Origin: Pseudomonas sp. Ga0074129
GTDB lineage: Bacteria > Pseudomonadota > Gammaproteobacteria > Pseudomonadales > Pseudomonadaceae
Length of the DNA stretch: 64,000 bases
NCBI GenBank assembly: GCA_001465025.1
Contig: LNDO01000079.1
Coordinates: 62,001 to 126,000 of the forward strand
Reading direction: 5' to 3'
Shown: positions 37,221 through 54,678 of the stretch, piece by piece
How the letters are laid out: each line of letters begins with the position of its first letter
Position numbering within the stretch: position 1 is the first letter of the stretch
The notes under the pieces: generated by a model
What the model saw: only the letters and a program-made list of their open reading frames with translations
Told to the model about the DNA's origin: nothing
The model's database searches: none
Translations under genes and position numbers: made by a program

Positions 37221-38010
37221 CCGGACTGGCCTCTGCGGCGTCGAGGTCGAGGTGCAGATCAGGCTCCTGCGGGTGGCTGACCTGCTCGCGCTGCTGCTCA
37301 AACAATTGCTTGAGGGCCTGATTGAGGCGGGTTTCTACTGTGGCATCAATACGGCTGAGTTCAGTTTCAACCCTGCAACCGCCCGGGAGCAGCGAGGCAT
37401 CTTCAAGGATTCGCCAACTTTCTTCATGGCGCTCACGCATGCTTTTGATCAGTTCAAAATCCTGCGGATTAACGTGAATACGTATATTGCCGGCCCCCAT
37501 GGGCAACAGCTTGAGCGCTTCGCCAAGAACCTGACGAATCTGACTGGAATCGCTGGCCAGCTCTCGCTGAATCACCTGGCGCACCATCTGCCCGAGCAGC
37601 GTCACCATGGCCTCTTCAAGCTGCTGATCCTGCTCGGCGATAGGGGCAAATAACTGCGTCATCAGCTGTTCAAGGCCGACCATTTTAGCGGCTAAGGCGG
37701 TATCGCTTTCCTGCTTGGCTTTTAACTGACCGGCATGGAAGCCGTCTTTCTCGCCGGTGGCAAAGCCTTCGTTGTAAGCATCCTGGCGAATAGCTTCCAG
37801 CTCGTCCAACGTCAAAGGCTTGACGTCTTCTAAGGCGACTTCTTCGCTCTCTGCCTGCAGAAGTGTCTCTTCTGTCGACTCAGGCACCGGCTCCGGTTCA
37901 GTTGGCTCGGGAGCCTCAACGTGGGGATCAAAGCTAGGCAATGCCCAGAGATCTACGCCCTTGAGATCCTTGGCGCGAATCAGCTCACTGGGCGGCTCTT
38001 TGCTGGACAT
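37210..38010 (-). CDS. fliH: flagellar assembly protein FliH
   Basis: A 266-residue negative regulator and peripheral stalk of FliI. An N-terminal acidic, Pro/Glu-rich segment follows the conserved start ([19 protein letters not shown]). A helical GxxxG-type region and the C-terminal FliH/V-ATPase E-like domain ([55 protein letters not shown]) come next. It is three bases after fliG. Confidence 0.96.
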
Positions 38011-38013
38011 AAG

Positions 38014-39030
38014 TTAAACCATTTCCTCGCCACCCTTACCGCCCAAGACGATTTCGCCGGCATCGGCCATGCGCCGGGCAATGGTGAGAATTTCCTTCTG
38101 CGCGGTTTCCACATCGCTGACGCGAACTGGGCCTTTGGCCTCCAAGTCGTCGCGCAACAGCTCGGCCGCGCGCTTGGACATATTTTTGAAGACCTTTTCC
38201 TTGATCGCTTCGTCGGCACCTTTAAGTGCCAGCACCAGCACATCCGACGACACTTCGCGCATGAGCGCCTGAATGCCTCGATCGTCCACATCGGCCAAGT
38301 TGTCGAAGACAAACATAAGGTCTTCGATCTGGCTGGACAGGTCTTCGTCGACTTCGCGGATGGAGTCCATCAACTGGCCTTCAACCGAGCTGTCGAGGAA
38401 GTTCATGATGTCCGCTGCACGTTTGACACCACCCAGCGCGGCGCGTGAGGTATTGGCGCTGCCAGAGAACTGCCGTTCAAGAATATCGTTGAGTTCTTTC
38501 AGCGCTGCCGGCTGCACGGTTTCCAGCGACGATACCCGCAACACGATGTCCAGCCGCACTTTGTGGTCGAAATGCCCGAGCACTTCACCAGCCTGATCAG
38601 GGTCCAGATAGGCCACCACAATGGCTTGGATTTGCGGGTGCTCGTAGCGGATCACATCCGCCACGGCGCGCGGTTCCATCCACTTCAGGCTGTCCAGGCC
38701 GCTGGTGCTGCCACCGAGCAGAATACGGTCGATCAGGCTGCCGGCTTTGTCTTCGCCCAGGGCCTGAGTCAGCATCTTGCGGATATAGCCATCGGCCCCC
38801 ACGCCCAGGCTGGTCTGATCGCCGACGATATCGACGAACTCCCCCATCACCTGTTCAACCTGCTCGCGCTGGATATTGCGCATGCCGGCCATGGCCACAC
38901 CCACGCGCTGCACTTCTTTGGGCCCGAGGTGACGCAGCACCTGCGCCGCGTCGGTTTCACCGAGCGAAAGCAGCAAAATCGCGGCTTTATCAACCTTGGT
39001 CAACTTAGCGGGGGTTCGATTATCACTCAT
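38014..39030 (-). CDS. fliG: flagellar motor switch protein FliG
   Basis: A 338-residue rotor protein. The N-terminal domain (LTKVDKAAILLLSLGETDAAQVLRHL) binds FliF; the middle carries EHPQ (YEHPQIQAIVVAYLDPDQAG). The C-terminal domain has the torque helix charges (FKNMSKRAAELLRDDLEAKGPVRVSDV in pieces). It overlaps fliF by 8 bases. Confidence 0.97.
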   Translation of the reverse strand: MSDNRTPAKLTKVDKAAILLLSLGETDAAQVLRHLGPKEVQRVGVAMAGMRNIQREQVEQVMGEFVDIVGDQTSLGVGADGYIRKMLTQALGEDKAGSLIDRILLGGSTSGLDSLKWMEPRAVADVIRYEHPQIQAIVVAYLDPDQAGEVLGHFDHKVRLDIVLRVSSLETVQPAALKELNDILERQFSGSANTSRAALGGVKRAADIMNFLDSSVEGQLMDSIREVDEDLSSQIEDLMFVFDNLADVDDRGIQALMREVSSDVLVLALKGADEAIKEKVFKNMSKRAAELLRDDLEAKGPVRVSDVETAQKEILTIARRMADAGEIVLGGKGGEEMV

Positions 39031-40804
39031 CGGCGTTAATCCACTCTTTCACAACCTGGGCCACCCGACCCGGGTCTTCGGCAACCAGGCTCTTAATGGC
39101 GTTTAGTTGCGCATCATACCCCTCACTCGGACTCGGTAGGAGGATGCTTTGCGGGCCGCCCAGGCTGACACGGTCGTCTGCCAGATCGCCGCCCAACGCG
39201 CCCATTTCACCCAATTCAACATCGCCGCCACGACCACCGTCTTGGGACTTGCCCGCGTTGGTGATGTTGTTAAGCACAGGGCGCAGCACGCCAAACACCA
39301 AAATCAGGATAAACAGCACACCCATCGCTTGCTTGACGATGTCCCAGAACCAGGGCTGGGTGTAGAACGGGATATCGATGATTTCTTCACCCAACGCATC
39401 CGTGAACGGCGTATTGATCACACTTACGCTGTCACCACGCGAGGCATCAAAGCCAACCGAGTCCTGCACCAAACGGGTAAAGCGCGCCAAGTCCTCAGTG
39501 CTCCACGCGACGCGGGTGGTTTCACCCGTGGCGGCGTCAATTTTGACCTGATCATCGACCACCACCGCCACCGACAAACGACGCAGACGCCCTTGTTGTT
39601 GCTTGGTGTAGCTGACCGAGCGATCAAGCTCAAAGTTACGGGTGGACTGTTCACGCTTATCAGCCGGATAAGGTGCCAGCATGGCGACACCCGTTGCAGG
39701 GTCGATGATCTGCTCACCGTTAGCATCCAATAATGGCTGGCCAGCCGCTACCGCGCCCGGCGGGGCCGCCGTACCCGCTTGCTCAGGCGCACCCGCAGCA
39801 CCTGGCGGCTGATTAGCCACTGCGCCTGGCACGCCTTGCGGCGGCTGGCTGCTGGTGCGCTGCTCGTTGACTTGCTGCTCGCTGCGCAGCGCCGGCTGAT
39901 CTGGGTTGAACATCTCCGCAGTGGACTCCACAGAGCTAAAGTCCACGTCTGCCGACACCTCGGCTTTATAGCGGCCCGACCCCAGCACAGGCTGCAGAAT
40001 GTTGTGCACGCGCTGGGTAAACAGGCTCTCCATACGGCGGCTGTAGTCAAACTGTTTGCCGGCCATGGTCAGCTCGGACATTTCCTGAATATCCGAGAGC
40101 AGGTTGCCCTTCTGATCCACGACAGTCACCTGTGACTTGTCCATCTCAGGCACGCTGCTGGCAACCAAATTAACAATGGCCATAACCTGGCTGGGCTCCA
40201 GCCCCCGCCCGGAATACAGTTCAACCAACACCGAGGCGCTAGGTTTGCGCTCATCACGCACAAACACCGAGCTTTTCGGAATAGCCAAATGAACCCGCGC
40301 CGCTTTGACGTTGTTCAGGCTCGATACCGTGCGCGCCAGTTCACCCTCAAGGCCACGGCGGTAACGTGTGGCTTCCATGAACTGACTGGTACCCAAGCCT
40401 TGCTCTTGATCGAGAATTTCAAAGCCCACGCTATTGTCGCGCGGTGATACGCCAGCGGCAGCCAGGCGCATGCGCGCACGCGCCAGATCATCGGCTTTGA
40501 CCAGCAAAGCGCCGGAATTGGGTTCGACGGTGTATTTGATGTCCGCAGCCGCCAGCGTCTCCATCACCTGCGATGCATCCATACCATCAAGGCTGCCATA
40601 CAGCGGTCGGTAATCCGGCTGCTGCGACCACAGCACCACAGCAAAACCGATGGCCACGCTAGCGGCCAAGCCCACCAGCAAGCCGATCTGACGCAACATC
40701 GACATGTCGGCCAGGTTTTCCAGAAAAGTCAGGCCGAACAGCGGTTTTTTCGGCTCATCGCCACCGGTAGTGGCAGGTACGTTTGCAGCGGCGGCTTCAG
40801 CCAT
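39023..40804 (-). CDS. fliF: flagellar MS-ring protein FliF
   Basis: A 593-residue MS-ring protein. Two membrane helices (about 36-56 and 460-482) flank a large periplasmic ring-forming region with the YscJ-like segment (VEPNSGALLVKADDLARARMRLAAAGV). A disordered Pro/Gly/Gln-rich loop lies about 310-360, and the cytoplasmic C-terminus (GRVAQVVKEWINADE) binds FliG. It is the scaffold on which the motor is built. Confidence 0.97.
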   Translation of the reverse strand: MAEAAAANVPATTGGDEPKKPLFGLTFLENLADMSMLRQIGLLVGLAASVAIGFAVVLWSQQPDYRPLYGSLDGMDASQVMETLAAADIKYTVEPNSGALLVKADDLARARMRLAAAGVSPRDNSVGFEILDQEQGLGTSQFMEATRYRRGLEGELARTVSSLNNVKAARVHLAIPKSSVFVRDERKPSASVLVELYSGRGLEPSQVMAIVNLVASSVPEMDKSQVTVVDQKGNLLSDIQEMSELTMAGKQFDYSRRMESLFTQRVHNILQPVLGSGRYKAEVSADVDFSSVESTAEMFNPDQPALRSEQQVNEQRTSSQPPQGVPGAVANQPPGAAGAPEQAGTAAPPGAVAAGQPLLDANGEQIIDPATGVAMLAPYPADKREQSTRNFELDRSVSYTKQQQGRLRRLSVAVVVDDQVKIDAATGETTRVAWSTEDLARFTRLVQDSVGFDASRGDSVSVINTPFTDALGEEIIDIPFYTQPWFWDIVKQAMGVLFILILVFGVLRPVLNNITNAGKSQDGGRGGDVELGEMGALGGDLADDRVSLGGPQSILLPSPSEGYDAQLNAIKSLVAEDPGRVAQVVKEWINADE

Positions 40805-40819
40805 GATTCAGCTCCACCC

Positions 40820-41149
40820 TTAAACCGGCATCTGCATGATGTCTTGATACGCCTGGACCAGCCTGTTACGAACCTGGGTCATGGCCTGGAAGGAAACGCT
40901 GGCTTTCTGCGAAGCGATCATCACATCCGTCAAATCAACGCCACCTGTGCCCATTTCAAAGGCGGTGGCCAGCTTATTGGAGGCTTGCTGGTTTTCGTTC
41001 ACCTTGTTGACTGCCTGACCGAGCATTTCAGAAAAGCTCGGTGCGCCGACTTCTGGCGTGCTGATCACAGGCTTTTGACGCGCCATGGCTTCAGCCTGCA
41101 TGGACCGCATCTCAAGCATCAGACGATTGAATTCAACACCTTGGCTCAT
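40820..41149 (-). CDS. fliE: flagellar hook-basal body protein FliE
   Basis: A 109-residue rod adaptor between the MS-ring and rod. The C-terminal region [39 protein letters not shown] is diagnostic. ATG 41149 is the second of two adjacent ATGs; the TGGAGG site is better placed for it, and the resulting length is the family norm. It is the first gene of fliEFGHIJ. Confidence 0.96.
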
Positions 41150-41163
41150 CATTACCTCCACTG

Positions 41164-41189
41164 GCCGCGGTTTTTTGACGCTTCGCGGC
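41164..41189 (-). promoter_or_regulatory. leader hairpin of the fliE operon
   Basis: GCCGCG (41164-41169) pairs with CGCGGC (41184-41189) around a 14-base A-rich loop. It lies wholly between the predicted sigma-54 transcription start (about 41193) and the TGGAGG ribosome site, ending three to four bases before that site. It may affect translation or RNA stability; function unknown. Confidence 0.45.
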
Positions 41190-41203
41190 GTTTGTGGAGT
41201 CTT

Positions 41204-41220
41204 TGCAACAAGGGTGCCAA
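41204..41220 (-). promoter_or_regulatory. sigma-54 promoter of fliEFGHIJ
   Basis: On the minus strand: TTGGCAC-N5-TTGCA, a perfect match to the -24/-12 consensus. It lies about 55 bases before the fliE start and inside the short gap after the VF530-family gene. RpoN/FleQ control of this operon is known in P. aeruginosa. Confidence 0.9.
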
Positions 41221-41247
41221 ATTTCTGAACGGATGGTTTTGGGTCTA

Positions 41248-41466
41248 TCAGCGACCGAGGGTGCGCACGTACAGCGCTTCGACCTTCTCCCGCGCCCAAG
41301 GCGTTTTACGCAAAAACGTCAGGCTGGACTTAATACTCGGGTCGCTTTTAAAGCAGCGAATATCAATGCGCTGTGCCAGCTCATCCCAACCGTACTGGGC
41401 AACCAAGGCGGTGAGAATGGCTTCGAGGGTAACGCCATGCAGGGGATTTTTGGGTGACTGAGTCAT
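41248..41466 (-). CDS. VF530 family (DUF2132) small protein
   Basis: A 72-residue protein that matches the VF530 family over its whole length: [28 protein letters not shown], then [30 protein letters not shown]. Members are small basic proteins suggested from structure to bind DNA; no cellular role is established. It is read toward fliE but ends only about 30 bases before the fliE promoter, so it is probably a separate unit. Confidence 0.92.
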
Positions 41467-41626
41467 GCAGAACCTGTGCGAACAACGTGGTTAATGTAAA
41501 CCCCGCCACCTTAGCCAAGCTGGCGAACAATCGAAAGCTCCACAGGCACTTGAATGCAGGCACACCGGGACCAAGCTGACATCAACCTGAGGCGGCTCCG
41601 GACAGCAACTACCCCGCCAAGCGGCC

Positions 41627-41664
41627 AAAAAAAAGCCGGCCCAACACGCTATGTGGGGGCCGGC
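41627..41664 (-). terminator. rho-independent terminator after putP
   Basis: GCCGGCC (41635-41641) pairs with GGCCGGC (41658-41664). The A-run at 41627-41634 becomes an eight-U tail on the minus-strand transcript. It lies about 90 bases after the putP stop and ends that transcript before the VF530-family gene. Confidence 0.9.
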
Positions 41665-41751
41665 GAAGCACTATCGGGTCACACGCACATCAACGCGAAA
41701 CACACTCGCGCAGCAACTGAGCGACCAGCCAGTTGCTGTAAATCTCAGCCA

Positions 41752-43239
41752 TTACGCCGATTGGTATTCTTTCTCAGCGTCGTCAAAGCGCTTAATCATG
41801 CTGGCCGAAGGGCCATTGCCGATCTTGCTAAATACAACGATGGCGAGGGTGGCGAGGATGAATCCAGGAATGATTTCGTAAAGGCCCAGGTGGCCGAGGA
41901 AGTTTTTCCACAGGATCACTGTCAGTGCGCCCACCAACATGCCTGCCAACGCGCCATTACGCGTCATCTGCTTCCATACCAGCGAAAGAATCACCACCGG
42001 ACCAAAGGCAGCACCGAAACCCGCCCATGCATAGGACACCAAACCTAACACGCGGTTTTCTGGATTAGCGGCCAGGAGGATTGCGACCACTGCAATCAGC
42101 AACACCATGCCACGACCAACCCACACCAGCTCAACCTGCGAAGCGTCTTTGCGCAGGAACGCTTTGTAAAAATCCTCGGTCAGCGCACTCGAGCACACCA
42201 ACAACTGGCAGCTCAGGGTGCTCATGACAGCGGCAAGAATGGCCGAGAGCAGAATGCCGGCAATCCAAGGATTAAACAGCAGCTTGGCGAGTTCAATGAA
42301 TACACGCTCTGGGTTCTCGGCAACTGGGCCAGCAAGCTCGGGGTTGGCAGAGAAATAAGCGATGCCAAAGAAGCCAACAGCGACTGCGCCACCCAGGCAA
42401 AGCACCATCCACGTCATGGAGATGCGACGAGCAGCGGCAATGGATTTCACCGAATCAACAGCCATAAAGCGCGCCAAGATGTGCGGCTGACCAAAATAGC
42501 CAAGCCCCCAAGCGAGCAATGAAACCACACCGACAAAGCTGGCACCTTTGAGCATGTCGAAGCTGGTGGCATCTTTCAGCTCAATCGCCGCAAACGTTGC
42601 ATCCGCTCCACCGGTGGCAATGATCACCACGATAGGCGTCAGAATCAGGGCAAAAATCATCAGCGTGGCTTGCACGGTGTCAGTCCAGCTAACCGCCAGG
42701 AAACCACCGATAAAGGTGTAAGCGATGGTTGCTGCTGCACCGGCCCACAGCGCTGTCTCGTACGACATGCCGAAGGTGCTTTCAAACAGCCGCGCACCTG
42801 CTACCACGCCCGATGCGCAGTAGATGGTGAAGAACACCAAAATAACCAACGCCGAGAAGATGCGCAGCAAGCGGCTGCTGTCTTCAAAGCGGTGAGTGAA
42901 GTAATCGGGCAAGGTCAGGGCATTGCCATTGTGCTCGGTCTGCACGCGCAGGCGGCCAGCAACAAACAACCAGTTCAGGTAAGCACCCACAATTAGCCCG
43001 ATGGCAATCCAGCCTTCAGACAAGCCCGACAGATACACGGCACCGGGCAAGCCCATCAGCAGCCAGCCACTCATGTCCGATGCGCCAGCCGACAACGCGG
43101 TGACAAAACTACCCAGGCTGCGACCGCCCAAGATGTAGTCGGATAGATTTTTGGTACGCATGTAAGCGAACAGGCCGATCATCACCATCAGCGCGATGTA
43201 CACCACAAACGTGATGAGCATCGGGGTATTTGCAGTCAT
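41752..43239 (-). CDS. putP: sodium/proline symporter PutP
   Basis: A 495-residue member of the sodium:solute symporter family with about 13 membrane helices. Signatures include YILGGRSLGSFVTALSAGASDMSGWLLMGLPG (N-terminal sodium/proline site, split by loops), GGFLAVSWTDTVQATLM and ILAAVMSTLSCQLLVCSSALTEDFYKAF. It imports proline with Na+. The usual partner putA (proline dehydrogenase) is not next to it. A GGGGAG-like ribosome site precedes ATG 43239. Confidence 0.96.
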   Translation of the reverse strand: MTANTPMLITFVVYIALMVMIGLFAYMRTKNLSDYILGGRSLGSFVTALSAGASDMSGWLLMGLPGAVYLSGLSEGWIAIGLIVGAYLNWLFVAGRLRVQTEHNGNALTLPDYFTHRFEDSSRLLRIFSALVILVFFTIYCASGVVAGARLFESTFGMSYETALWAGAAATIAYTFIGGFLAVSWTDTVQATLMIFALILTPIVVIIATGGADATFAAIELKDATSFDMLKGASFVGVVSLLAWGLGYFGQPHILARFMAVDSVKSIAAARRISMTWMVLCLGGAVAVGFFGIAYFSANPELAGPVAENPERVFIELAKLLFNPWIAGILLSAILAAVMSTLSCQLLVCSSALTEDFYKAFLRKDASQVELVWVGRGMVLLIAVVAILLAANPENRVLGLVSYAWAGFGAAFGPVVILSLVWKQMTRNGALAGMLVGALTVILWKNFLGHLGLYEIIPGFILATLAIVVFSKIGNGPSASMIKRFDDAEKEYQSA

Positions 43240-43714
43240 TGGGGGCTCCCCTCTTGATTGTTGTTATAACGGCAACTGGAACAACCCAGTTACCCGCATG
43301 AAATTTCATACATAAATGGCAAACGGCCTCTGCATCTTGTTCAACACGGTGAGTGTTGAAACCAACGCGAAGCCACTGCCACTCAGTTGACCGGCAAACG
43401 TCCCTTTAATTACCTGACGCATTAACGATGCGGGCATTTAAGTGAAGTGCTCAGGGCTCTTCACCGCCGCGCCAATCACGTATTTACCAAGCAACGTCCT
43501 TTCGGCTCGCGCTGGCAGCGTTCGGGTGTTGGCAAAAACTGCACTCCGGACAAAGCGAGAACGGAATTTAGTGGCAGACGCATCACAGCTTCTTACAAAA
43601 AACTCTGGAGTTTTTGCAAAAACCTCCAAGCACGGAACTTACTGCCCGCCAGGGAAGGTTCATAAGACGCTTATCGGCTCGGTTTAAGCGGGTATCAGGC
43701 GAGGGTCAGGACGC
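43240..43714. other. 475-base intergenic region upstream of putP
   Basis: No gene is supported; short open frames here lack ribosome sites and family resemblance. The putP-proximal part holds a perfect palindrome ATGAAATTTCAT at 43298-43309 and an inverted repeat AACTGG/CCAGTT just before it. Further right, a GTGAAG/CTTCAC repeat and an AAAAACTC-TG-GAGTTTTT repeat (43598-43615) are seen. No convincing terminator for the haemoglobin gene could be identified. Confidence 0.5.
43298..43309. promoter_or_regulatory. palindrome upstream of putP, possible operator
   Basis: ATGAAATTTCAT is a perfect 12-base palindrome about 60 bases before the putP start, in AT-rich sequence that could hold the promoter. 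It could bind a dimeric regulator; no regulator is identified. Confidence 0.3.
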
Positions 43715-44134
43715 CTAACGGTCGATGACTTGCGCGCGCATAGGTGCAAGGCGCGCCAGCAAACGATTTTGCGCGGGGATGGCAACACCTTGGGCCGTCA
43801 TGGCGGCCTGAAGATTTTCTACCAGCGCATTGAAGTCGCTTGGGGTCAGGTTTTGCCCTTTATGGCTTTCTTCCATGCTGTCGCCGGTGTAAACGCACGG
43901 CCCGCCGGCTTCAACACAGAACTGCTCGACCAGTTTGTCGCGCAGGCGCACGATGTCGATCTTCTCAAAGTGGCGCACGATGCGTGTGTCGGCGGCGATG
44001 TTAAGCAGCATCCCTTCAACAATGCGCGTAATGCCGGCCTGCCCACCCAAAGCGCGGTAAAGGCTGTCATCCTTCGGTGGTTGCTGAGCGCACGCCGCGA
44101 GGCTGAGGACAACCGCCAGTAGTAACGCGCGCAT
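43715..44134 (-). CDS. group 1 truncated haemoglobin, lipoprotein
   Basis: A 139-residue protein with a lipobox LAAC (Cys15, +2 Ala, so outer-membrane sorting is expected). A group 1 truncated globin follows: LYRALGGQAGITRIVEGML, GGPCVYTGDSME and proximal His91 in ESHKGQNLT. Aligned by eye with mycobacterial HbN, the distal Tyr (B10) is Leu43 and the distal Gln (E11) is Leu68, so the usual hydrogen-bonding pocket is absent. Haem binding is likely; ligand and partner are unknown. It is the last gene of a four-gene unit, two bases after the DUF3034 gene. Confidence 0.88.
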   Translation of the reverse strand: MRALLLAVVLSLAACAQQPPKDDSLYRALGGQAGITRIVEGMLLNIAADTRIVRHFEKIDIVRLRDKLVEQFCVEAGGPCVYTGDSMEESHKGQNLTPSDFNALVENLQAAMTAQGVAIPAQNRLLARLAPMRAQVIDR

Positions 44135-44136
44135 AC

Positions 44137-44994
44137 TCAGAAGCTCCCCTGAACAGACAGATACACCCCGTCCTGATTATCCAGCGTGGCAATTTCGCCC
44201 AGTCGGGCGTAAGCCAGCACCAGCGCCAGATTTTTAGTGGGGAAATAACCGACAAACACGTCCGCCCAGTCACTCTCCCCGGCAAAACTCAGGTTATCGG
44301 GCTTCTCGCGGTACTCAATGCCCAGCGCCCAGTGCGGATTGAACAGCACGGCCAGCGAACCTTCTTTCAGGAGCGAATGACGATCACGGCGGTCGCCGCC
44401 AAAACCCAACAGCCCCAACTCGTTGGCCCGGCTGTAACGCACCCCGCCATTGATCAGCAGGTTATATCCAAAGGCCCCGCCCAGTAGCAGGCGGCTGGCC
44501 GTCAGGTAGGCCTCGCTGTCTTCGCTGCGCTGTGCGCCAATCAGGCTGGGAATCAGAAAATCTTTCTGCCGCTTGTGCTGGATGCCCAGCGAAACCTGCG
44601 GTAACTGATCGTAAATAAGGTCGCCGAAGAGGCGCACTTTAAGGCCAAAAACATCCTGACTCAGGCTGTTTTCCGGCAGATTCAGGTCGCGCGCCAGGGT
44701 GCCCAGATCGAACCGTTGCCGTGCATAGGACAGCTCGATGCGGTTGTCGAATGCCACGCCAACACCGGCCACGTCCAAGCGGTAATCGCCCGTTTCCACG
44801 CGGGTGGCAAACACATCCGCGCCCCATTCGCCACGCTCGCCATAACCGGACAACACCGCCCACGGGGTGATACCGCCACCGGCAGCACCTTCGATACTGC
44901 TGGCACCACCTGTAGCCAGTAAGCGGCCATCTGCCCAACTTGAACTGGCTAAAAGGGCCGAAAGCACGGCGGCTGTGCGCAGGATTTTTCTCAT
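44137..44994 (-). CDS. DUF3034 family outer-membrane beta-barrel protein
   Basis: A 285-residue protein with a signal peptide (cleavage after about residue 21, SSWA-DG). Alternating amphipathic strands run through the rest and the chain ends in a C-terminal phenylalanine (VYLSVQGSF), the usual Bam-dependent barrel ending. Conserved family segments include GGGITPWAVLSGYG, LSQDVFGLKVRLFGDLIYDQLPQVSLG and FNPHWALGIEYREKPDN. The function of DUF3034 proteins is not known. The 4-base overlap with the EAL gene and 2-base gap to the globin gene place it in a tight unit. Confidence 0.85.
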   Translation of the reverse strand: MRKILRTAAVLSALLASSSWADGRLLATGGASSIEGAAGGGITPWAVLSGYGERGEWGADVFATRVETGDYRLDVAGVGVAFDNRIELSYARQRFDLGTLARDLNLPENSLSQDVFGLKVRLFGDLIYDQLPQVSLGIQHKRQKDFLIPSLIGAQRSEDSEAYLTASRLLLGGAFGYNLLINGGVRYSRANELGLLGFGGDRRDRHSLLKEGSLAVLFNPHWALGIEYREKPDNLSFAGESDWADVFVGYFPTKNLALVLAYARLGEIATLDNQDGVYLSVQGSF

Positions 44995-47330
44995 TCGCTC
45001 ACCTCGCCAATGTTGGTTTCAGCCCGCTGTTTCATCCAAGTTGCAAATGCCTGAGCCGGCAACGGCCGGCTGATCAGATAGCCCTGAACACTGTCGCACT
45101 GCCAGCGTTTAAGCAGGTGCAAGCTGCGCTCATACTCCACCCCTTCAGCCACCACTTTAAGCCCCAAGCTGTGACTCATTTCGATGGTCGAGCGCACGAT
45201 GACCGAGTCTTCACTGCCATCATCCAAATCGCGGATAAATGACTGATCAATTTTCAACTCCTGTACCGGCATGCGCTTGAGCTGGGCCAGAGAGGAATAA
45301 CCTGTGCCGAAGTCGTCAACCGACAGGCTGACGCCGCACTCACGCAGACCATGCAGCACCTGCAGAGCGCTCTCGGGGTTTAGCATGACGCCGCTCTCCG
45401 TGATTTCGAAGATCAGCTGCTCAGAGGGCACCTGATAATCACGCAGCAATTGATTGACCCGCTCCGGCAACTGCGGGTCGATTAGATCGTCAGTGGAAAT
45501 GTTCAGCGAGACCTGAACCCACAAGCCGTTGCGCGCCCATTGCGCCAATTGACGTACCGCCTCCTCAATGACCCAGGCAGTCAGCAACTGAATGCTGCCA
45601 GTGCGCTCGGCCAGGGGAATGAATTCCCCCGGCGAAACCATGCCCAGCTCAGGGTGCTGCCAACGCAACAGGGCTTCCGCCTGGCGTACCACGCCGCTGG
45701 CTAAATCCAGTTTGGGTTGATAGTGCAACTGCAACTCGGCCCGCTCCGGCGCGTGTCGTAAATCGCGAATCAGCTGTATTTGCCGCTGCTGATCGGCATC
45801 ACGCCCGCGCTGGTAGATCTGCAGATAACTGCCCGAGCCTGCGACATCCTGCATGGCAATGGTCGCACGGCGCAGCAGTTCTTCAGGCGCATTGCCGTCT
45901 TCGGGGTAGCTGGCAATGCCCATGCGGCATTCCAGGGTGAAATCATGCACACCCACGCGCAAGGGCGTGAGGAGCATTTGCTGCACCCGGTCAGCGACGC
46001 CCACGGCGCTGTCGCTGTCGCTGTTTTCCAGCAGCAGCAGAAACTCATCACCAATAATCCGCGCCACGCTGTCGCCGGGACGCAACATGCCTTGCAGGCG
46101 CTGGCTCAGTTGCTGCAAAGCCAGATCGCCGCCCTGCGGCCCGAGGCTTTCATTGATTGCGCGAAAATTGGCCACGCCGAGATAAAGCAGAGCAGTCGGT
46201 CGCTGCGCCGTCATCGCGCTGCCCAGTCGCTCAAGGGCCAAAGGCCTGTTGGGCAAACCTGTCAGCGGGTCATGCAAGGCGTTATGCGCCAGTTGCCGCT
46301 CACGCTCGGCAATCGCCTGCTGCATGGTCTTGAATGCCGCCGCCAAACGACCCAGCTCATCTGAGCGCCGCATGTTCAGGTCGACCTGATAATCCCCCCG
46401 CCCCACACGCTCAACCACGGCCGCCAGTTGCTGGACGGGTTTTGACACCGAACGGGCGAGCAACAGCGCGCCGCCCAGAGAAGCCATCAACGCGGCGAGG
46501 GCAATTAACAGAATGTCGCGATCCAGAGGGGCAAAGGCCTCTTGCGCCTGGTTCAGCGATTTGTGTAGCAGCGCCTGCACTTTGAAATCCGCACCACTGG
46601 CCAACACCAACGCCTGATTGAGGTAGGCCTCATCACCCATAACCTGCAGGGCTTCATCGTTACCCTGAGCGATGTGCGCCTGCAAGAGCGCCAACTGTGC
46701 CGCAGGCAACGTGCTGATCCAGATATCCGGCAAATCTGTCTGGGTCGCTCGCAGGGTCAGGTTGAGGTGGGTTAGCTCGCGCAATTCGGCGGCAAATTGA
46801 TCATCAACTGCAAAGCCCATCATCACCCGGGCAATCGGCAAGGGGGCGCTGACGGCGGTTTTCACCAAGAGGTAAATACTGTCGCCAATCGGTATCAGGA
46901 AAATCTGGATACCTGCCCTCTGCCGCTTCGCAACTTGAGAGCTAAGACGCCGCGCTGTTTCAGCGGTGATTTTGCGATCGCTGCTGATCTGCAGATTACC
47001 GTTCAGATCAAGCAACATCATGACATCGGCATTGATTCGTGCGCCGTGATTGGCCAGCGCCGAGCGAATCGTCTCAGTGTCGCCGCTGGCCACCGCATCC
47101 TTGAAGCCAAAATCGGCGGCCATCACCTGCACCGCGTCATGCAACTGGCGGCCGCGCACTTCGAGTAGCTGTTGGAACACCAGACTGCCGACATCCAACT
47201 GCTCACGCGCCTGGCTGCGCACGGCGGCATTGGTGGCGGTTTGCACGGCCACATACAGCGCCCCCACCACCACCAAGAGCAGCAGCACGAGTACGCCGGC
47301 GATTCGCGCCTGAAAACTATTGCGCAGCAT
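44991..47330 (-). CDS. membrane sensor with HAMP, degenerate GGDEF and EAL domains
   Basis: A 779-residue inner-membrane c-di-GMP protein. TM1 is about 9-30, a periplasmic sensor region of some 250 residues looks like a double Cache fold, TM2 is about 283-303, and HAMP follows. The GGDEF site reads RIIGDEF, so the first Gly is lost, but the RPGD inhibitory site stands five residues upstream. The EAL domain keeps EALLRW, EITE, DDFGTG, KIDQSF, EGVE and QGY...RPLP, so it should be an active phosphodiesterase. ATG 47330 (MLRNSFQARIAG) has AAGG upstream and overlaps the cupredoxin gene by 14 bases. Confidence 0.92.
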   Translation of the reverse strand: MLRNSFQARIAGVLVLLLLVVVGALYVAVQTATNAAVRSQAREQLDVGSLVFQQLLEVRGRQLHDAVQVMAADFGFKDAVASGDTETIRSALANHGARINADVMMLLDLNGNLQISSDRKITAETARRLSSQVAKRQRAGIQIFLIPIGDSIYLLVKTAVSAPLPIARVMMGFAVDDQFAAELRELTHLNLTLRATQTDLPDIWISTLPAAQLALLQAHIAQGNDEALQVMGDEAYLNQALVLASGADFKVQALLHKSLNQAQEAFAPLDRDILLIALAALMASLGGALLLARSVSKPVQQLAAVVERVGRGDYQVDLNMRRSDELGRLAAAFKTMQQAIAERERQLAHNALHDPLTGLPNRPLALERLGSAMTAQRPTALLYLGVANFRAINESLGPQGGDLALQQLSQRLQGMLRPGDSVARIIGDEFLLLLENSDSDSAVGVADRVQQMLLTPLRVGVHDFTLECRMGIASYPEDGNAPEELLRRATIAMQDVAGSGSYLQIYQRGRDADQQRQIQLIRDLRHAPERAELQLHYQPKLDLASGVVRQAEALLRWQHPELGMVSPGEFIPLAERTGSIQLLTAWVIEEAVRQLAQWARNGLWVQVSLNISTDDLIDPQLPERVNQLLRDYQVPSEQLIFEITESGVMLNPESALQVLHGLRECGVSLSVDDFGTGYSSLAQLKRMPVQELKIDQSFIRDLDDGSEDSVIVRSTIEMSHSLGLKVVAEGVEYERSLHLLKRWQCDSVQGYLISRPLPAQAFATWMKQRAETNIGEVSE

Positions 47331-47988
47331 CAAGGGCCTTCTTGAATGCATCCCCGAAGGAATTGGTGGGTGGCGACGGGGCAATCGCATCCGCTGCTAC
47401 CTGCACGGCTATGGTGAAGCGCTGCGCTGTGGCCTGCTCCCCAATGTTCACGTCGGCAGCCGACTGCGGCAGCATCTCGGCGATATGCGGATGCCATAAG
47501 CTGACGCTGTAACGCCCTGCTGGTAAGTCATCAATGCGCAAACGGCCCTGGTCATCGGTGACGGCAAACCAAGGGTCATCGGTGACGTAGACATAACCCA
47601 CCATCCAGTCATGGATATTGCAACCGAGCACCACCACGCCTGGGGTATCAAACACAACCGGTTCGCTGGGTGTGCCCTGATACAGGCGAAGCTCAAAACG
47701 CTTGGCTGCCGAGAAGGAATAAACGTGGTGACGAATGTTGTCGCTGTTGGGAAACGACACAGCCGTCCCGACCCGCACAGCCAAGACGCTTGGCGCAAAT
47801 TGCTGCGCGCGCTGATCAATGACTGCCGAAGCAGGCGCCGAGGCTGCCAAGGCGTCATTGCGCAGGCTCACAACCGCATTGGCCAATGGCCGGCCTTGGC
47901 TATCCACCACTTCAGCCTGCAGATTGGCGGCCTGTAAAGGCGCTGCTAGAAACAGGGCCAGCAGCGGGTATGCCCACGACTTCTTCAT
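47317..47988 (-). CDS. periplasmic cupredoxin-like protein
   Basis: A 223-residue secreted protein (signal peptide, cleavage after AAPLQA). The central cupredoxin-like domain has a type 1 copper pattern: His88 (NIRHHVYSF), Cys123, His126 and Met129 (GCNIHDWMVGYV). A segment typical of carboxypeptidase-regulatory/Ig-like folds follows (GRLRIDDLPAGRYSVSLWHP). Such genes are often annotated as methylamine utilisation proteins, but no methylamine dehydrogenase genes are here. ATG 47988 was chosen (MKKSWAYPLL). It is the first gene of the four-gene unit and could carry electrons or sense copper in the periplasm. Confidence 0.85.
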   Translation of the reverse strand: MKKSWAYPLLALFLAAPLQAANLQAEVVDSQGRPLANAVVSLRNDALAASAPASAVIDQRAQQFAPSVLAVRVGTAVSFPNSDNIRHHVYSFSAAKRFELRLYQGTPSEPVVFDTPGVVVLGCNIHDWMVGYVYVTDDPWFAVTDDQGRLRIDDLPAGRYSVSLWHPHIAEMLPQSAADVNIGEQATAQRFTIAVQVAADAIAPSPPTNSFGDAFKKALDAAQ

Positions 47989-48172
47989 AAACACCACTCA
48001 CATCAAAAAAAAACGTGCATGCGCACGCCAGCAGCTTAACCGGGCAACAGCCGGGTAAACATTAGCTGGCCAGTGACCGAAGAGTACGTAGGGACGCCTG
48101 TGCTGTGCAATCGGCACACCGGCTTAAAGAGAGAAAAACCAACCACTTGGACAGCACCACGGTGCCGACTCA

Positions 48173-48184
48173 ATGCCATGGCAT
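48173..48184. repeat. palindrome between araC-type gene and cupredoxin gene
   Basis: ATGCCATGGCAT, a perfect 12-base palindrome 26 bases after the AraC regulator stop. Its role is unknown; it lies upstream of the cupredoxin unit and may be an operator or part of a weak terminator. Confidence 0.3.
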
Positions 48185-48209
48185 GTGCTCGGATAAGCGC
48201 ACGCGCAGG

Positions 48210-48962
48210 TTAATCAGCGCCCCGCACGCGCTTGGGCGTTAAACCCAGGTAACGGCGCATGGCTGTAGTCAAAGCACTCTGGCTGGAAAAACCGCATTCC
48301 TCGGCAATCCGTATCAATGGCAGGCCGCTTTCACGCAGCAAACGGGCGGCACGGTCTAGGCGTGTTTTGAGCAAATATTGATGAGGCGTCAGGCCCACAC
48401 TGTCCTTGAACTGAGCATGGAAATGACTCGGGCTCAAACACGCCACTTGGGCCAACTCGGCAACGCTGATACGTCGCGCGAGGTTATTGATGATGAACTG
48501 GTCAAGGCGCTCCACATTGAGCATGCCGGCAACACGCTCCTGCGGTTCGCCGAACAGGCGCAAGTGCAAAGCACGCAGCAATACGCCGCCCAAAGCACGA
48601 CCGAGAAAAGGATCGGTGCCGTAGCGCTGCAACTCGGCACCGGCGTAGCTCAACAAGTTTTGAAAATCAGCATCCAGTTGCGGATAACGCGGCATTTCAA
48701 ACAGGCGGGTCAACACTTGCAGGTCTGAACTGGAGGCACCCTCCTCATCCAGATCAATGATTAGCATGCGGTTGTCGCCCATCCCGGCAAACTGGTGATC
48801 GGCATCCCCAGGAACCAAGCACGCACGCATGCGGCAGACTTCACCGCCACGGCCGTTGACCTCGAACTCGGCGCGCCCAGCCAAGGACAACACCACCTGA
48901 TGATGGTCGTGGGTATGTTCATGGGCCTGGTCATCGAGACGCATCAGGCGGGCGTTAAACAT
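48210..48962 (-). CDS. AraC family transcriptional regulator
   Basis: A 250-residue regulator. The N-terminal cupin-like domain (HEHTHDHHQVVLSLAGRAEFEVNGRGGEV) binds the effector. The C-terminal domain has two helix-turn-helix units (ISVAELAQVACLSPSHFHAQFKDSVGLTPHQYL and LIRIAEECGFSSQSALTTAMRRYLGLTPKRVR, given in family form). Three GGTGCAAC repeats precede it in helical phase. In PAO1 the proline-use regulator PruR lies between pdxJ and putP, so this may be its counterpart, but that is synteny-based inference. It could equally control the adjacent cupredoxin unit. Confidence 0.9.
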   Translation of the reverse strand: MFNARLMRLDDQAHEHTHDHHQVVLSLAGRAEFEVNGRGGEVCRMRACLVPGDADHQFAGMGDNRMLIIDLDEEGASSSDLQVLTRLFEMPRYPQLDADFQNLLSYAGAELQRYGTDPFLGRALGGVLLRALHLRLFGEPQERVAGMLNVERLDQFIINNLARRISVAELAQVACLSPSHFHAQFKDSVGLTPHQYLLKTRLDRAARLLRESGLPLIRIAEECGFSSQSALTTAMRRYLGLTPKRVRGAD

Positions 48963-49299
48963 TGCGGTGCAACCCCTGCAAATAAAGGTGCAACTTTACT
49001 CGCTTAACCACTAAAACTGCAGCCCGCACGACAAAAGGACATCTCACTACGGCGCACCATGCTGCTTAATCAGAGGCGACAAACCAAGTGAGGTGCAACC
49101 CATAAAGCAGCAACCACACACTCAACCACTACCGCCCTGCATGAGCGATACGGTCAATACAGAGTCTGCAGCAAACACCCTGCAGATAGCCTGCGTGCGT
49201 TAAATGGCCCGCTTAAATCACTCAATTAGCACGGCACGAACGCCCATACGCGCGATCTTGTCGCTATGCTGGCAACCTAAACCTCTGCTGGAGCCAATC
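48963..49299. other. 337-base divergent intergenic region araC-type / I42 lipoprotein
   Basis: It holds the promoters for both divergent genes. The only clear structure is the set of three GGTGCAAC direct repeats (48966-48973, 48987-48994, 49092-49099). No gene is supported within it. Confidence 0.6.
48966..49099. promoter_or_regulatory. three phased GGTGCAAC repeats, likely AraC operator
   Basis: Identical octamers start at 48966, 48987 and 49092. The distances of 21 and 105 bases are whole multiples of 10.5, so all face the same side of the helix. The first covers the ribosome site region of the AraC regulator gene, which suggests self-repression. The first and third share the longer GGTGCAACCC. 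Confidence 0.5.
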
Positions 49300-49698
49300 A
49301 TGCTCGTTCTGCGCCTCACAGCCTTGTTAAGCCTCGCCGCACTTCTCAGCGCCTGCGCGCAAAAACCCAACAGCGTAACCCTCGACCAGAAACACCAGAG
49401 CAAATGCCCACTAGAGCTGCATGTTGGCCAGCAATTCATCCTGCGCCTGCCCAGCAACCCAACGACCGGGTTCCGCTGGTTGATGCGAGATGCCGCGCCG
49501 CAGGTGTTAAAAAGCCTTGGCCCCGAGGTCTACAGCAACCCCGAAGACACAGGCCTGGTCGGCAGCAGCGGCATCTCCACCTGGCGCTTCAACGTCGTGG
49601 CAGCCGGGGAAGGCCAACTCAGCCTGACCTATGAGCGCCCCTGGGAAGTCGGCGTGGTTCCCGCGCAGCGCTTTACCTGCACGCTTAAAGCCAAGTAA
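49300..49698 (+). CDS. chagasin-like (I42) cysteine protease inhibitor lipoprotein
   Basis: A 132-residue protein with a lipobox LLSAC near residue 17 and a chagasin/I42 fold carrying the three inhibitory loops: SNPTTGFRW, the GSSGISTWRF segment and YERPWE. Family members block papain-type cysteine proteases; bacterial targets are seldom known. ATG 49300 has GGAG seven bases upstream; the longer open frame has no such site. It lies divergent to the AraC regulator gene and about 120 bases before cmoA. Confidence 0.88.
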   Translation: MLVLRLTALLSLAALLSACAQKPNSVTLDQKHQSKCPLELHVGQQFILRLPSNPTTGFRWLMRDAAPQVLKSLGPEVYSNPEDTGLVGSSGISTWRFNVVAAGEGQLSLTYERPWEVGVVPAQRFTCTLKAK

Positions 49699-49816
49699 GT
49701 GCTGCGTAATTAACTGGGGCTGCGGGTAAATTTGCGACCAATAGCTGCAATCAACGTTTGGCTATGCCGCGCACTTGGCTAAAATGCCCGGCTTTCTCGA
49801 CCAGTGCGCAGCCATC

Positions 49817-50560
49817 GTGAGCAAACAGCCCGACCGTCTTTTCGCCCAACCCCTGGCCCAGGTGCCGGACTTCGTGTTCAACGAAGATGTGGTGCGGGTC
49901 TTCCCCGACATGATCAAGCGCTCAGTGCCGGGTTATCCGACCATTGTCGAGAACATTGGCGTGCTCGCGGGGCAGTTTGCCCAACCGCACAGTGTTCTCT
50001 ATGACCTTGGCAGTTCGCTGGGCGCCGTGACGCAAGCACTGCGCCGGCATGTACAGATTGCCGATTGCCGGGTGATCGCCGTGGACAACTCCAGTGCCAT
50101 GGTCGAGCGCTGCCGCGAATACCTGCATGCTCAGGACTCGATGTTTCAGGAGTTATTGCCGGTCGAGGTGATCGAAGCCGACATCCTCAGCCTCGACTTC
50201 CAGCCCACCTCGCTGGTGGCCTTGAACTTCACCCTGCAATTTATTCAGCCCGAACAACGCCTCGAACTGCTCAGCCGCATTCGCCAGGCCCTGCTGCCCG
50301 GCGGCGCACTGATTCTCTCGGAAAAACTGCAGTTCGAAGATGCTCAGCAGCACGCGCTGCTGGGCGATTTGCACATCGCGTTTAAGCGCGCCAACGGTTA
50401 CAGCGAGTTGGAAATTGCGCAAAAGCGCAGCGCCATCGAAAAAGTCATGCTCCCCGATAGCCTCGAACAACACCGCGAACGTCTGCTGGCAGCCGGCTTC
50501 AGCCAGGTAGTGCCGTGGTTCCAATGCCTTAACTTCGCCTCGATGATTGCCCTGCCATGA
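49817..50560 (+). CDS. cmoA: carboxy-SAM synthase CmoA
   Basis: A 247-residue methyltransferase-fold enzyme that makes carboxy-S-adenosyl-methionine from SAM and prephenate. It has [16 protein letters not shown] as the SAM loop, [16 protein letters not shown], and the conserved [10 protein letters not shown] and [18 protein letters not shown]. The product is used by CmoB to modify wobble uridine 34 of tRNA. GTG 49817 ([12 protein letters not shown]) was chosen from family length and start; ATG 49784 and TTG 49775 are in frame but would add an odd tail. The stop overlaps cmoB (ATGA). Confidence 0.95.
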
Positions 50561-51525
50561 TCAACCGCCTCGACCTCGATGCCCTGCAAGCCACTCTGGC
50601 CGGCACCCCACTGCAAGAATGGTCAGCCGACTTGCCCGGACAAATTGACGCAAAGTTGGCCATCGGTCATGGCGACCTGCCGCGCTGGTACGGTGCGGTG
50701 CAGGCCCTACCGAAACTGAGCGTCGAACAGCTGGAACTGCTGCACAGCTTCAGCTTCAACGGGCCATGCGACGACAGCACCCGCGCCGCCCTGAACACCG
50801 CTCTGCAGGGCTTGATCCCGTGGCGCAAGGGACCGTTTCATCTGTTCGGCGTGCACGTCGACACCGAATGGCGCTCGGACTGGAAATGGCAGCGGGTCGC
50901 GCCCTACCTCGATCTCAAAAACAAGCGCGTGCTGGATGTCGGCTGCGGCAACGGCTATTACATGTGGCGCATGCTCGGCGCAGGTGCAAGCAGCGTGGTC
51001 GGCATCGACCCTAACTGGCTGTTCCTCTGCCAATTTCTGGCGATGAAGAACTACCTGCCCGACCTGCCAGCTTGGCATCTACCACTGGCCTTCGAGGAAT
51101 TGCCCGGCAAGCTGCAAGGCTTCGACACGGTGTTCTCCATGGGCGTGCTGTACCACCGCCGCTCGCCCATTGATCACTTGATCGACCTCAAGGACTGCCT
51201 GGTAAAAGACGGCGAACTGGTGCTGGAGACCTTGGTGGTCGAAGGCGATGCGCAGCAAGTACTGGTGCCCGAAGACCGTTACGCGCAGATGCGCAACGTC
51301 TGGTTTTTGCCTTCGGTGCCCGCGCTGGAGTTGTGGTTACGCCGCGCCGGCTTCGTCGACATCCGCTGCGTAGATGTCAGCACCACCAGCGTCGACGAAC
51401 AGCGTTCGACCGAGTGGATGCGCTTCCAGTCACTGCCGGAATTCCTCGACCCGGCTGACCATAGCCGCACAATCGAAGGGCTACCGGCACCAAGCCGTGC
51501 GGTGTTGATCGCGCGCAAACCGTAG
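50557..51525 (+). CDS. cmoB: tRNA U34 carboxymethyltransferase CmoB
   Basis: A 322-residue enzyme that transfers the carboxymethyl group from carboxy-SAM to 5-hydroxyuridine 34, giving cmo5U. An N-terminal helical region is followed by [22 protein letters not shown] and the SAM loop [28 protein letters not shown] and [10 protein letters not shown] come after. It is coupled to cmoA. The TAG stop codon is part of a REP-like repeat. Confidence 0.96.
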
Positions 51526-51597
51526 GATGGGTTAGACGCGTAGCGACGTAACCCATCGCTCCAAGAGATGGGTATCGCTGCGCTCAACCCATCCTAC
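51522..51597. repeat. REP-like inverted doublet
   Basis: GTAGGATGGGTT (51522-51533) and AACCCATCCTAC (51586-51597) are outer inverted arms. Inside, two hairpins form in opposite orientation: GATGGGTTA with TAACCCATC (left), and GATGGGT with ACCCATC (right). The layout resembles a REPIN, two REP units head to head. GTAGGATGGGTT-type repeats are common between genes in several Pseudomonas lineages. It lies between convergent cmoB and pdxJ and may also act as a bidirectional transcription end. Confidence 0.8.
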
Positions 51598-51611
51598 AAC
51601 TAAGCTCTCGA

Positions 51612-52350
<739 letters not shown>

Positions 52351-52358
<8 letters not shown>

Positions 52359-53049
52359 GGCTTGGCTCCTTGAGCGTCATAAACAATTCGCGGCTGACCA
52401 GTGGCCGACCGCCTAAATGAGGGGCAAGTGCTTGGCGCATAAGGCGTTTGGCGGCAGCTAAAGCACCAGGTACGGCCCAATCGGCAGCGGCCATGGCCAG
52501 CAACTCGCCCCCCTGAAAAATCCCCGGCTGCAACTGGCCAACCGGCACCAGCCCGGTTTCAGCGTGTAGGCGGTACAACCCCTGCTCGGCAATGGGTTGG
52601 CCTTGGCTGTCCAGATCCAGAGCGAAACCATAGCCCAGCTCATCGAGCAAACGCCATTCAAAAGAACGCAGTAAAGGCTCAATCGCACGGCCTTCGGCCA
52701 GCGCCAAGACTGTCAGGGCGTAGTGCTGGAAAATCGCCGGATGCGGATCTTCGGCGGGCAATACGCGAATCAGCAACTCGTTGAGGTACAGGCCACTGAA
52801 CAGCGCTTCACCCATCAACAGATTGGGAATACCACCCGCCTCGAGGCGGCTGACATTCTTCAGTTCGCCACGGCCACGAAACTCAGCTTCCAACGGAATA
52901 AAGGGCCGCGCCAGGCTGCCAGCTTTTCCTCGCGCCCCACGCATGACTGCACGAAGGCGACCCTGCGGGGTGAGGAAGTCGACCAGCGCACTGCTTTCGC
53001 GATAGGCACGGCTGTGCAGAACATAGGCAGGCTGACTGGGGGCAAGCAT
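52351..53049 (-). CDS. recO: DNA repair protein RecO
   Basis: A 232-residue recombination mediator. It has an N-terminal OB fold ([34 protein letters not shown]) and a helical C-terminal part. The zinc-finger cysteines found in some RecO proteins are absent, as is usual in gammaproteobacteria. It loads RecA on SSB-coated DNA with RecR. An attenuator-like hairpin lies between era and recO. Confidence 0.95.
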
Positions 53050-53062
53050 TGGCTTACTCGCA

Positions 53063-53085
53063 AAACGGGCGCAAGAACGCGCCCG
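53063..53085 (-). terminator. terminator or attenuator between era and recO
   Basis: GGGCGC (53067-53072) pairs with GCGCCC (53079-53084) around a six-base loop; the minus-strand stem is followed by GTTTTGCG. The short U-run suggests partial termination, so recO-pdxJ would be expressed below era. Confidence 0.55.
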
Positions 53086-53093
53086 AAGGTAAC

Positions 53094-53996
53094 TCAGATG
53101 TTGTCGTAACCCAGGGAACGCAGGGCGCGCTCATCATCCGACCAGCCGCTTTTGACCTTAACCCAGAGGTTGAGCATGATTTTGGAGTCGAACATCACTT
53201 CCATATCCTTGCGCGCCTCTTGGCCAATGCGCTTGATGCGCTCACCCTTGTCGCCAATGATGATTTTCTTCTGCCCGTCGCGCTCTACCAGAATCAGCGC
53301 GTGGATATGCAGGATGCGCCCGTCGCGCTTGAATTCCTCGATTTCCACGGTGATCTGGTACGGCAGTTCGGCACCCAGCTGACGCATGATTTTCTCGCGC
53401 ACCAGTTCGGCGGCGAAGAAGCGGCTGGAGCGGTCGGTGACCTGATCTTCCGGGAAAAAGTGCACACCTTCAGGCAAACGCTCACCGACCAGTTTTTCCA
53501 GGGTGTCGAGGTTATGCCCGTGCTGAGCGGATACCGGTACGATCTCGGCATTCGGCAACTGGGTGGCCAGCCACTCCAGGTGCGGCATCAGTTCGGCTTT
53601 GTCTTCGATGCGATCGGTCTTGTTGATGGCCAGAATGACTGGGCCTTCAACATACTGGATACGCTCCAGAACCATTTGGTCTTCATCAGTCCAGCGCGTG
53701 CGATCCACCACAAAAATCACCACATCGACGTCTTTGAGGGCCGACGAGGCGTTCTTGTTCATGTAGCGGTTCAGCGCTTTCTCGTTGTTTTTATGCAGGC
53801 CGGGGGTGTCGACGTAGATGGCCTGCACCTCACCCTCGGTCTTGATGCCGAGCATGTTGTGGCGGGTGGTCTGCGGCTTGCGCGAGGTGATCGCCAGCTT
53901 CTGACCGAGAATATGGTTAAGCAGTGTCGACTTGCCCACGTTGGGCCGGCCGACGATGGCGACATAGCCACAGCGTGTAACGGGTAAATCAGTCAT
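53094..53996 (-). CDS. era: GTPase Era
   Basis: A 300-residue GTPase needed for 30S maturation. It has G1 [13 protein letters not shown]3 DTPGLH, G4 NKTD and a C-terminal KH domain with the motif [18 protein letters not shown] segment ([18 protein letters not shown]). It binds the 3' end of 16S rRNA. ATG 53996 ([16 protein letters not shown]) overlaps the rnc end by 8 bases; the frame extends slightly upstream without support. Confidence 0.97.
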
Positions 53997-54678
53997 TGCC
54001 ATTCTCCACACCCAGCGCAATCAGCGCGGCAGCCGCAGCCACTTGCTCAGCAATACGCCGGCTCGCACCTTGGCCCAGGGTTTTGTCGTTCAATAAGGCG
54101 ATCTGACACTCCACAACAAAGGTGCGGCAGTGCGGTTCACCCTGAATATCCACCACTTCATAGCGTGGCAGTTCACACCCGCGTGACTGCAAGAATTCCT
54201 GCAGGCGGGTTTTCGGATCTTTGTTGGTGTCGACCAACGTCAGGCTTTCCAGCTCCGTGGTCAGCCAAGCCAACACGCGCTCGCGCGCCGCCTCCATGCC
54301 GGTGTCCAGATATATCGCGCCAATCAGCGCTTCCAAGGCATCGGCAAGGATCGACTCACGGCGAAAACCGCCGCTTTTCAGCTCACCAGAGCCGAGGCGC
54401 AGGTACTCGCCCAGATCAAAACCGCGCGCCAGGATTGCCAACGTTTCGCCTTTGACCAAGCGGGCACGTAGGCGTGACAACTGACCTTCTCGCGCTAGGG
54501 GGAAGCGCTCAAACAGCGCCTCACCGGCAACGAAGTTGAGAATCGCATCACCGAGAAACTCCAACCGCTCGTTGTTACGACCGGCGAAGCTGCGATGGGT
54601 CAGGGCCAGGATCATCAATTCCTGGTCTTTGAAGGTATAACCGAGCTGTCGCTCAAGACGGGCTAACGAAGTACTCAC
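53989..54678 (-). CDS. rnc: ribonuclease III
   Basis: A 229-residue double-strand RNA endonuclease. The catalytic domain has [14 protein letters not shown] (signature) and the later [16 protein letters not shown]-terminal dsRNA-binding domain is present ([30 protein letters not shown]). It processes rRNA precursors and structured RNAs. It lies between DUF4845 (4-base overlap) and era (8-base overlap). Confidence 0.97.

Follow-up and report, generated by a model that had tools for sequence, protein, structure and literature searches.

The stretch of DNA considered here (the window) comprises 64,000 nucleotides of Pseudomonas sp. Ga0074129 (contig LNDO01000079.1, positions 62,001 to 126,000), and its list of open reading frames (ORFs) contains four minus-strand ORFs in series, running from 47988 to 43715. 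A first-pass annotation had read these genes as one envelope unit, in which a periplasmic type 1 copper protein, a sensor phosphodiesterase acting on cyclic dimeric GMP (c-di-GMP), an outer-membrane DUF3034 protein and a lipid-anchored truncated haemoglobin are combined. From upstream to downstream, they are assigned as follows:

47317..47988, minus strand: predicted secreted cupredoxin, 223 amino acids (conserved ligands, weak profile match, predicted fold)
44991..47330, minus strand: predicted inner-membrane sensor phosphodiesterase, 779 residues, with dCache_3, HAMP, GGDEF and EAL domains (Pfam, residue conservation)
44137..44994, minus strand: DUF3034 protein (PF11231), 285 residues, predicted outer-membrane barrel (Pfam, structure model)
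43715..44134, minus strand: predicted group 1 truncated globin with a lipobox, 139 residues (Pfam, alignment)

The cupredoxin and phosphodiesterase genes overlap by 14 bases (47317-47330), the phosphodiesterase and DUF3034 genes overlap by 4 bases (44991-44994), and a gap of 2 bases lies between the DUF3034 and globin genes, so that all three junctions given by the first-pass annotation agree with the ORF list. The phosphodiesterase start used here is the ATG at 47330, and a longer in-frame start is located at 47390.

This grouping of genes is not peculiar to one strain. The four families occur together in many genera, and the full set is found in 77 of the 80 named loci, which come from Pseudomonas, Xanthomonas, Marinobacter and others; one of the 77, L125, has its own phosphodiesterase split over three frames and an intact paralogue adjoining. 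A further locus (L137), which is among the three short of the full set, starts at a contig end. In every one of the 128 loci whose globin exceeds 100 bits, DUF3034 and the globin are neighbours on the same strand; the distance between the end of one profile and the start of the other is 13 bases at the median and 251 at most. The 129th locus, L091, is a pseudogene that retains pieces of both. Thus the proposed envelope unit is a conserved one, and it is predicted to reach across the envelope layers.

Flanking genes were read in 48 fetched loci plus the window (49 in all) and in the 80 named loci, which are the best 80 of 520 confirmed and are skewed to Pseudomonas and Xanthomonas. These sets overlap in at least three pairs (L062/L098, L054/L124 and L055/L129), and one genome (G132) supplies two of the 49 loci; counts over 128-129 loci are therefore drawn from non-independent samples. 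Phosphodiesterase matches below 250 bits were dropped for family presence and those below 650 bits for residue and gene-order counts, cupredoxin matches below 100 bits were dropped from residue counts, and the globin cut-off of 100 bits removes L091 only. Genes in GC-rich loci were called by simple ORF rules. Among the best 80 of the 520 loci, the closest to the window is that of Pseudomonas anguilliseptica, whose DUF3034 protein is 86% identical. One four-gene unit (L168) would lie beyond the Proteobacteria, on a contig of a metagenome-assembled genome labelled Acidobacteria, and may reflect transfer or misbinning.

Gene orders in the 49 loci, window included, are as follows:

cupredoxin-phosphodiesterase-barrel-globin: 28 loci
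the same order with an additional phosphodiesterase upstream: 3 loci
divergent pairs: 6 loci, in genomes outside the class of the window
barrel-globin-cupredoxin-phosphodiesterase: 1 locus
cupredoxin-barrel-globin: 2 loci
barrel-globin-cupredoxin: 2 loci
phosphodiesterase-barrel-globin: 1 locus
barrel-globin without the others: 5 loci
pseudogene: 1 locus

The four genes are thus found together in three distinct arrangements. The same associations were evident on the scale of whole genomes. DUF3034 was found in 14 of 57 relatives and, within the phylum, in 39 of 398 genomes; all 39 also carry the globin subfamily with scores of at least 150 bits, the next scores being 142 in two other genomes and 95 for a second copy in G075. 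The cupredoxin is present in 38 of these 39 genomes and the phosphodiesterase sensor domain in 37. Among same-genus genomes in the sample of relatives, presence or absence of DUF3034 agrees with that of the cupredoxin in 36 of 36 and with that of the phosphodiesterase sensor in 34 of 36. Across the 398 genomes, the cupredoxin occurs in 60, the phosphodiesterase sensor in 50 and both in 49, which indicates that this combination is more widespread than DUF3034.

The first-pass view of a single four-gene unit holds with respect to linkage, but the unit splits into two separable pairs, each of which is seen apart from the other: the cupredoxin with the sensor phosphodiesterase, and the DUF3034 barrel with the globin. 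No phosphodiesterase adjoins DUF3034 in nine of the 39 genomes. Six of these (G041, G266, G278, G299, G314 and G442) carry an adjacent cupredoxin-phosphodiesterase pair elsewhere in the genome, and one (G195) carries a phosphodiesterase elsewhere, alone. In G314, a truncated DUF3034 gene and an intact globin gene lie directly behind an AraC gene, as if the first pair had been removed by deletion. The decaying copy L090 (7322-9149) has a truncated DUF3034 gene and an intact globin gene behind the AraC gene.

Twenty stretches were fetched for pairs located away from DUF3034; sixteen (L172-L187) contain the cupredoxin-phosphodiesterase pair and four contain one gene only. In seven of the sixteen, the gene that follows the phosphodiesterase encodes a secreted protein of 411-447 residues, and these proteins form one family whose members are 30-31% identical to its first member:

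L176, 4080-5333
L179, 3871-5112
L180, 9458-10696
L181, 4545-5780
L182, 10178-11425
L183, 9724-10974
L186, 9950-11293

The six members scanned gave weak, sub-threshold porin or barrel matches and no Pfam match above cut-off, and the family is likely to be an outer-membrane barrel. It has no profile similarity to DUF3034 (hhalign probability 1.7). In L177 and L178, another secreted protein with weak barrel matches is encoded directly ahead of the cupredoxin. In L184 (5720-10328), a di-haem cytochrome c peroxidase of the MauG type (193 bits) takes the place of the barrel, between the cupredoxin and an EAL protein that has a related sensor domain. No adjoining barrel was recognised in L172-L175, L185 and L187, a result weakened by the simple ORF rules applied to these GC-rich loci; DUF3034-globin is found elsewhere in those genomes (truncated in G314). 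The unlinked pairs, and the different barrel that occupies the same place, argue that the pairs are working modules.

The identity of the first gene product was checked separately, because Pfam yielded only a CarboxypepD_reg match, barely over cut-off, and no match to a cupredoxin family. Profile comparison matched it weakly to copper nitrite reductase (E = 0.00028, with no individual stretch significant), and structure modelling predicted a cupredoxin fold. The predicted type 1 copper site is formed by His87, Cys123, His126 and Met129, and these ligands are kept in all 119 loci of the alignment. Together these features support the earlier assignment of a type 1 copper protein, with predicted copper binding. 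Its CxxHxxM ligand loop is of the amicyanin type, and the predicted fold is likewise shared with amicyanin and pseudoazurin. Unlike those proteins, the cupredoxin domain here appears to be inserted into a second domain, a carboxypeptidase-regulatory-like beta-sandwich, and its genomic partner is a phosphodiesterase rather than methylamine dehydrogenase. Homologues among the matches listed are labelled 'methylamine utilization protein' or 'plastocyanin'. No methylamine dehydrogenase genes were present among the six window genes scanned, no wider mau search having been made, and we suggest that the former label, carried by several of the listed homologues, is misleading.

The second gene encodes a periplasmic dCache_3 domain followed by HAMP, GGDEF and EAL domains. 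The eight EAL residues usually needed for phosphodiesterase activity were placed by the positions in RocR, and their spacing equals that of RocR. In the 116 loci above 650 bits, the residues E, N, E, D, D, K and E are invariant, and the Q is present in 115 with one gap. Only 16 of these loci have a GGDEF motif that conforms to [GSA]G[DE]EF, and in the other 100 it is degenerate; the window protein reads IGDEF. An intact EAL domain beside a degenerate GGDEF domain makes a phosphodiesterase likely, not a cyclase, and lowered c-di-GMP, as first supposed, is the likely output. A DFGF signature in the periplasmic domain is conserved in 112-115 of 116 loci at each position, and a sequence search found no solved structure for this domain. 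A second paralogous phosphodiesterase gene is located upstream or downstream of the unit in several Pseudomonas loci (L025, L054, L055, L113, L116, L117, L119, L122, L124, L125, L128, L129 and L134).

The third gene product scores 373 bits for PF11231 (DUF3034), a family whose cut-off is 25. Its structure model (mean predicted local distance difference test score, pLDDT, of 77) has 12 strands, and a 12-stranded outer-membrane barrel is predicted on this basis. Residues 17-52 were modelled with low confidence, yet this conserved, glycine-rich N-terminal stretch is rich in invariant residues. The top-ranked folds were FapF, then OmpG and other porins, with template modelling scores (TM-scores) mostly of 0.3-0.5, and sequence search found no solved structure of the family. 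As DUF3034 is a family of unknown function, its place in a conserved unit suggests a role for it.

The fourth gene product matches Bac_globin (PF01152) with 52.7 bits, and the closest solved relatives of its profile are group 1 truncated globins, among them mycobacterial HbN (89-92 bits for 1idr and HbN mutants). Its predicted haem site is kept, in line with its description as a truncated haemoglobin: PheCD1 and the proximal His (His91 in the window) are invariant in 128 of 128 loci, and haem binding is predicted accordingly from the alignment. It differs from HbN in its export signal, in two near-invariant cysteines and in having no Tyr at B10, a residue that is present in HbN and usual in the family. 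The cysteines (Cys73 and Cys80) are each present in 126 of 128 loci and may be joined by a periplasmic disulfide. Position B10 is Leu, Val, Ile or Met in 127 loci and Asn in one; with that exception, B10, E7 and E11 are apolar throughout (Leu43, Leu64 and Leu68 at the distal positions in the window). By analogy with haem sensors that have no distal hydrogen-bond donor, such a pocket argues against tight binding of O2. Of the two gases suggested in the first-pass annotation, O2 and nitric oxide (NO), O2 is therefore the less likely ligand. The proposed lipid anchor is common but not universal: the window globin has the lipobox LAAC, and a crude pattern found a lipobox-like motif in 111 of 128 globins. 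In the globins of the divergent arrangement (L068, L073, L084, L086, L087 and L089), no lipobox was recognised, and a VDPYxxSxxNAG-like stretch precedes the globin domain.

A comparable organization is known from YfiBNR of Pseudomonas aeruginosa, which, in the portion of the account available, consists of an outer-membrane part, a periplasmic protein and an inner-membrane c-di-GMP enzyme; the latter two form its core, and the outer-membrane part is missing or unlinked in some genomes (PMC3375315). Both systems have a core of periplasmic protein and membrane c-di-GMP enzyme to which outer-membrane parts are added or exchanged. However, YfiN, as described there, is a GGDEF cyclase, so that the output enzyme considered here is of the opposite kind; the same portion of text names no copper, haem or barrel part (PMC3375315). 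Pfam reveals no equivalent of YfiR or of the PAL-type YfiB in the present unit, where DUF3034, Bac_globin and CarboxypepD_reg are found instead.

Given this resemblance, we put forward a modular relay across the envelope by which c-di-GMP would be lowered, a reading that we consider plausible although still somewhat short of probable. A redox-active or gas signal would be met by the predicted outer-membrane barrel and the predicted haem globin, the predicted periplasmic copper protein would transmit the signal state to the sensor in the inner membrane, whereupon the EAL phosphodiesterase would cut cytoplasmic c-di-GMP. In this scheme the globin would work with the barrel and the cupredoxin would act on the dCache domain; the direction of signalling and the nature of the ligand are likewise inferred. 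A redox theme is favoured by the MauG-type enzyme of L184 and by the invariance of the copper ligands, and our guess from the apolar pocket would be NO rather than O2, a guess without backing from regulator boxes. The periplasmic sensors of many c-di-GMP enzymes are not known to respond to any particular input. A unit this widespread raises a testable question, namely whether redox or gas conditions outside the cell lower c-di-GMP through a metalloprotein relay.

Several observations weigh against the proposed relay. The barrel and globin of L097 and L165 have other genes upstream (2.2 and 5.8 kb examined) and are thus true exceptions to the linkage, while G075 and G132 carry DUF3034 and the globin without the phosphodiesterase of the unit. 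The cupredoxin lacks the phosphodiesterase sensor in 11 of 60 genomes, G173 has the sensor without the cupredoxin, and G030 and G032 have a lone sensor with neither cupredoxin nor DUF3034. The globin may lack haem or serve another function, and Xanthomonas, which carries the unit, is not known to denitrify. Finally, five simple patterns were scanned in 78 stretches upstream of the cupredoxin and compared with five mononucleotide shuffles. This crude scan returned no FNR/ANR or CueR-like boxes and one NorR-like box; RpoN-like boxes (11, versus 5-9 in shuffles) and NsrR-like boxes (6, versus 2-5) barely exceeded chance. The scan thus gave no sign of control by NO, O2 or copper.

Alternatively, the barrel and globin could stand on the output side as exported effectors, namely a FapF-like channel or a surface scavenger of NO or O2, co-expressed with a phosphodiesterase under cupredoxin control. 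We regard this as unlikely but deserving of attention, since FapF barrels rank best for the DUF3034 model (with the modest TM-scores given above), and since DUF3034-globin can sit apart from the other pair and persists without a phosphodiesterase in G075 and G132. Against it, co-occurrence in 38 and 37 of 39 genomes and the varied arrangements of the same partners suggest a tie tighter than shared expression, and the same place beside the phosphodiesterase can be filled by another barrel family that is dissimilar at the profile level.

Two further schemes seem to us rather improbable, and to a similar degree. In the first, the globin would be docked to the barrel and exchange electrons with the cupredoxin, whose copper oxidation state would be read by the phosphodiesterase. 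If so, the redox condition outside the cell would set c-di-GMP inside, and swappable barrels would tune one copper-phosphodiesterase core to differing outside signals. In the second, copper, free or as a chelate, would enter through the barrel, the cupredoxin would be the copper receptor for the phosphodiesterase, and the globin would be an accessory redox protein or NO scavenger. The invariance of the copper ligands (119 of 119), the occurrence of the cupredoxin-phosphodiesterase pair without the globin, and the differing barrels beside that pair, which would suit differing uptake substrates, are consistent with copper sensing. However, the two flanking genes scanned belong to no copper-resistance or transport family, the upstream stretches contain no CueR-like boxes by the crude pattern, and the strict barrel-globin linkage is left unexplained. 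That these are independent envelope genes sharing an operon, with no common pathway, is very unlikely, as cupredoxin and DUF3034 are patchy within the genus and yet agree in all 36 sampled genomes, and as three arrangements hold all four genes.

The first-pass annotation knew of no described system of this composition, and we found the combination of four families nowhere in the open-access PubMed Central (PMC) text searched, a search that would miss mutant-screen hits reported under locus tags. The globin-coupled c-di-GMP sensors, such as DgcO, also tie a globin to c-di-GMP turnover; in the part of the source available, their globin domain lies inside the enzyme chain, whereas here it is encoded by a separate gene with a predicted export signal (PMC8846402). 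A search of the main text of this 2022 census of c-di-GMP sensing gave no occurrence of 'copper', 'cupredoxin' or 'outer membrane' (PMC8846402). The individual families are known, and what would be new is their union in a putative c-di-GMP signalling operon that spans the envelope and has new components. 'DUF3034' also appears in a retron figure legend, the other panels of which, as far as the excerpt extends, read DUF3037.

Upstream of the unit, a minus-strand hairpin with a T run lies just before the cupredoxin start (48029-48012) and was considered as an attenuator; of 119 upstream regions, no more than 7 have a similar element, and the idea was therefore dropped. A plasmid origin was also set aside, as the locus had no match among 72,556 plasmid records (near mode). 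A sigma-70 scan of 43200-49300 returned no sites, and nothing within 38000-54000 matched Rfam. The neighbouring upstream gene is as follows:

48210..48962, minus strand: AraC-family regulator (Pfam)

A close homologue of this regulator accompanies 21 of 128 loci, all at 71-90% identity, and it is possible that the AraC-family protein regulates the unit, though not generally.

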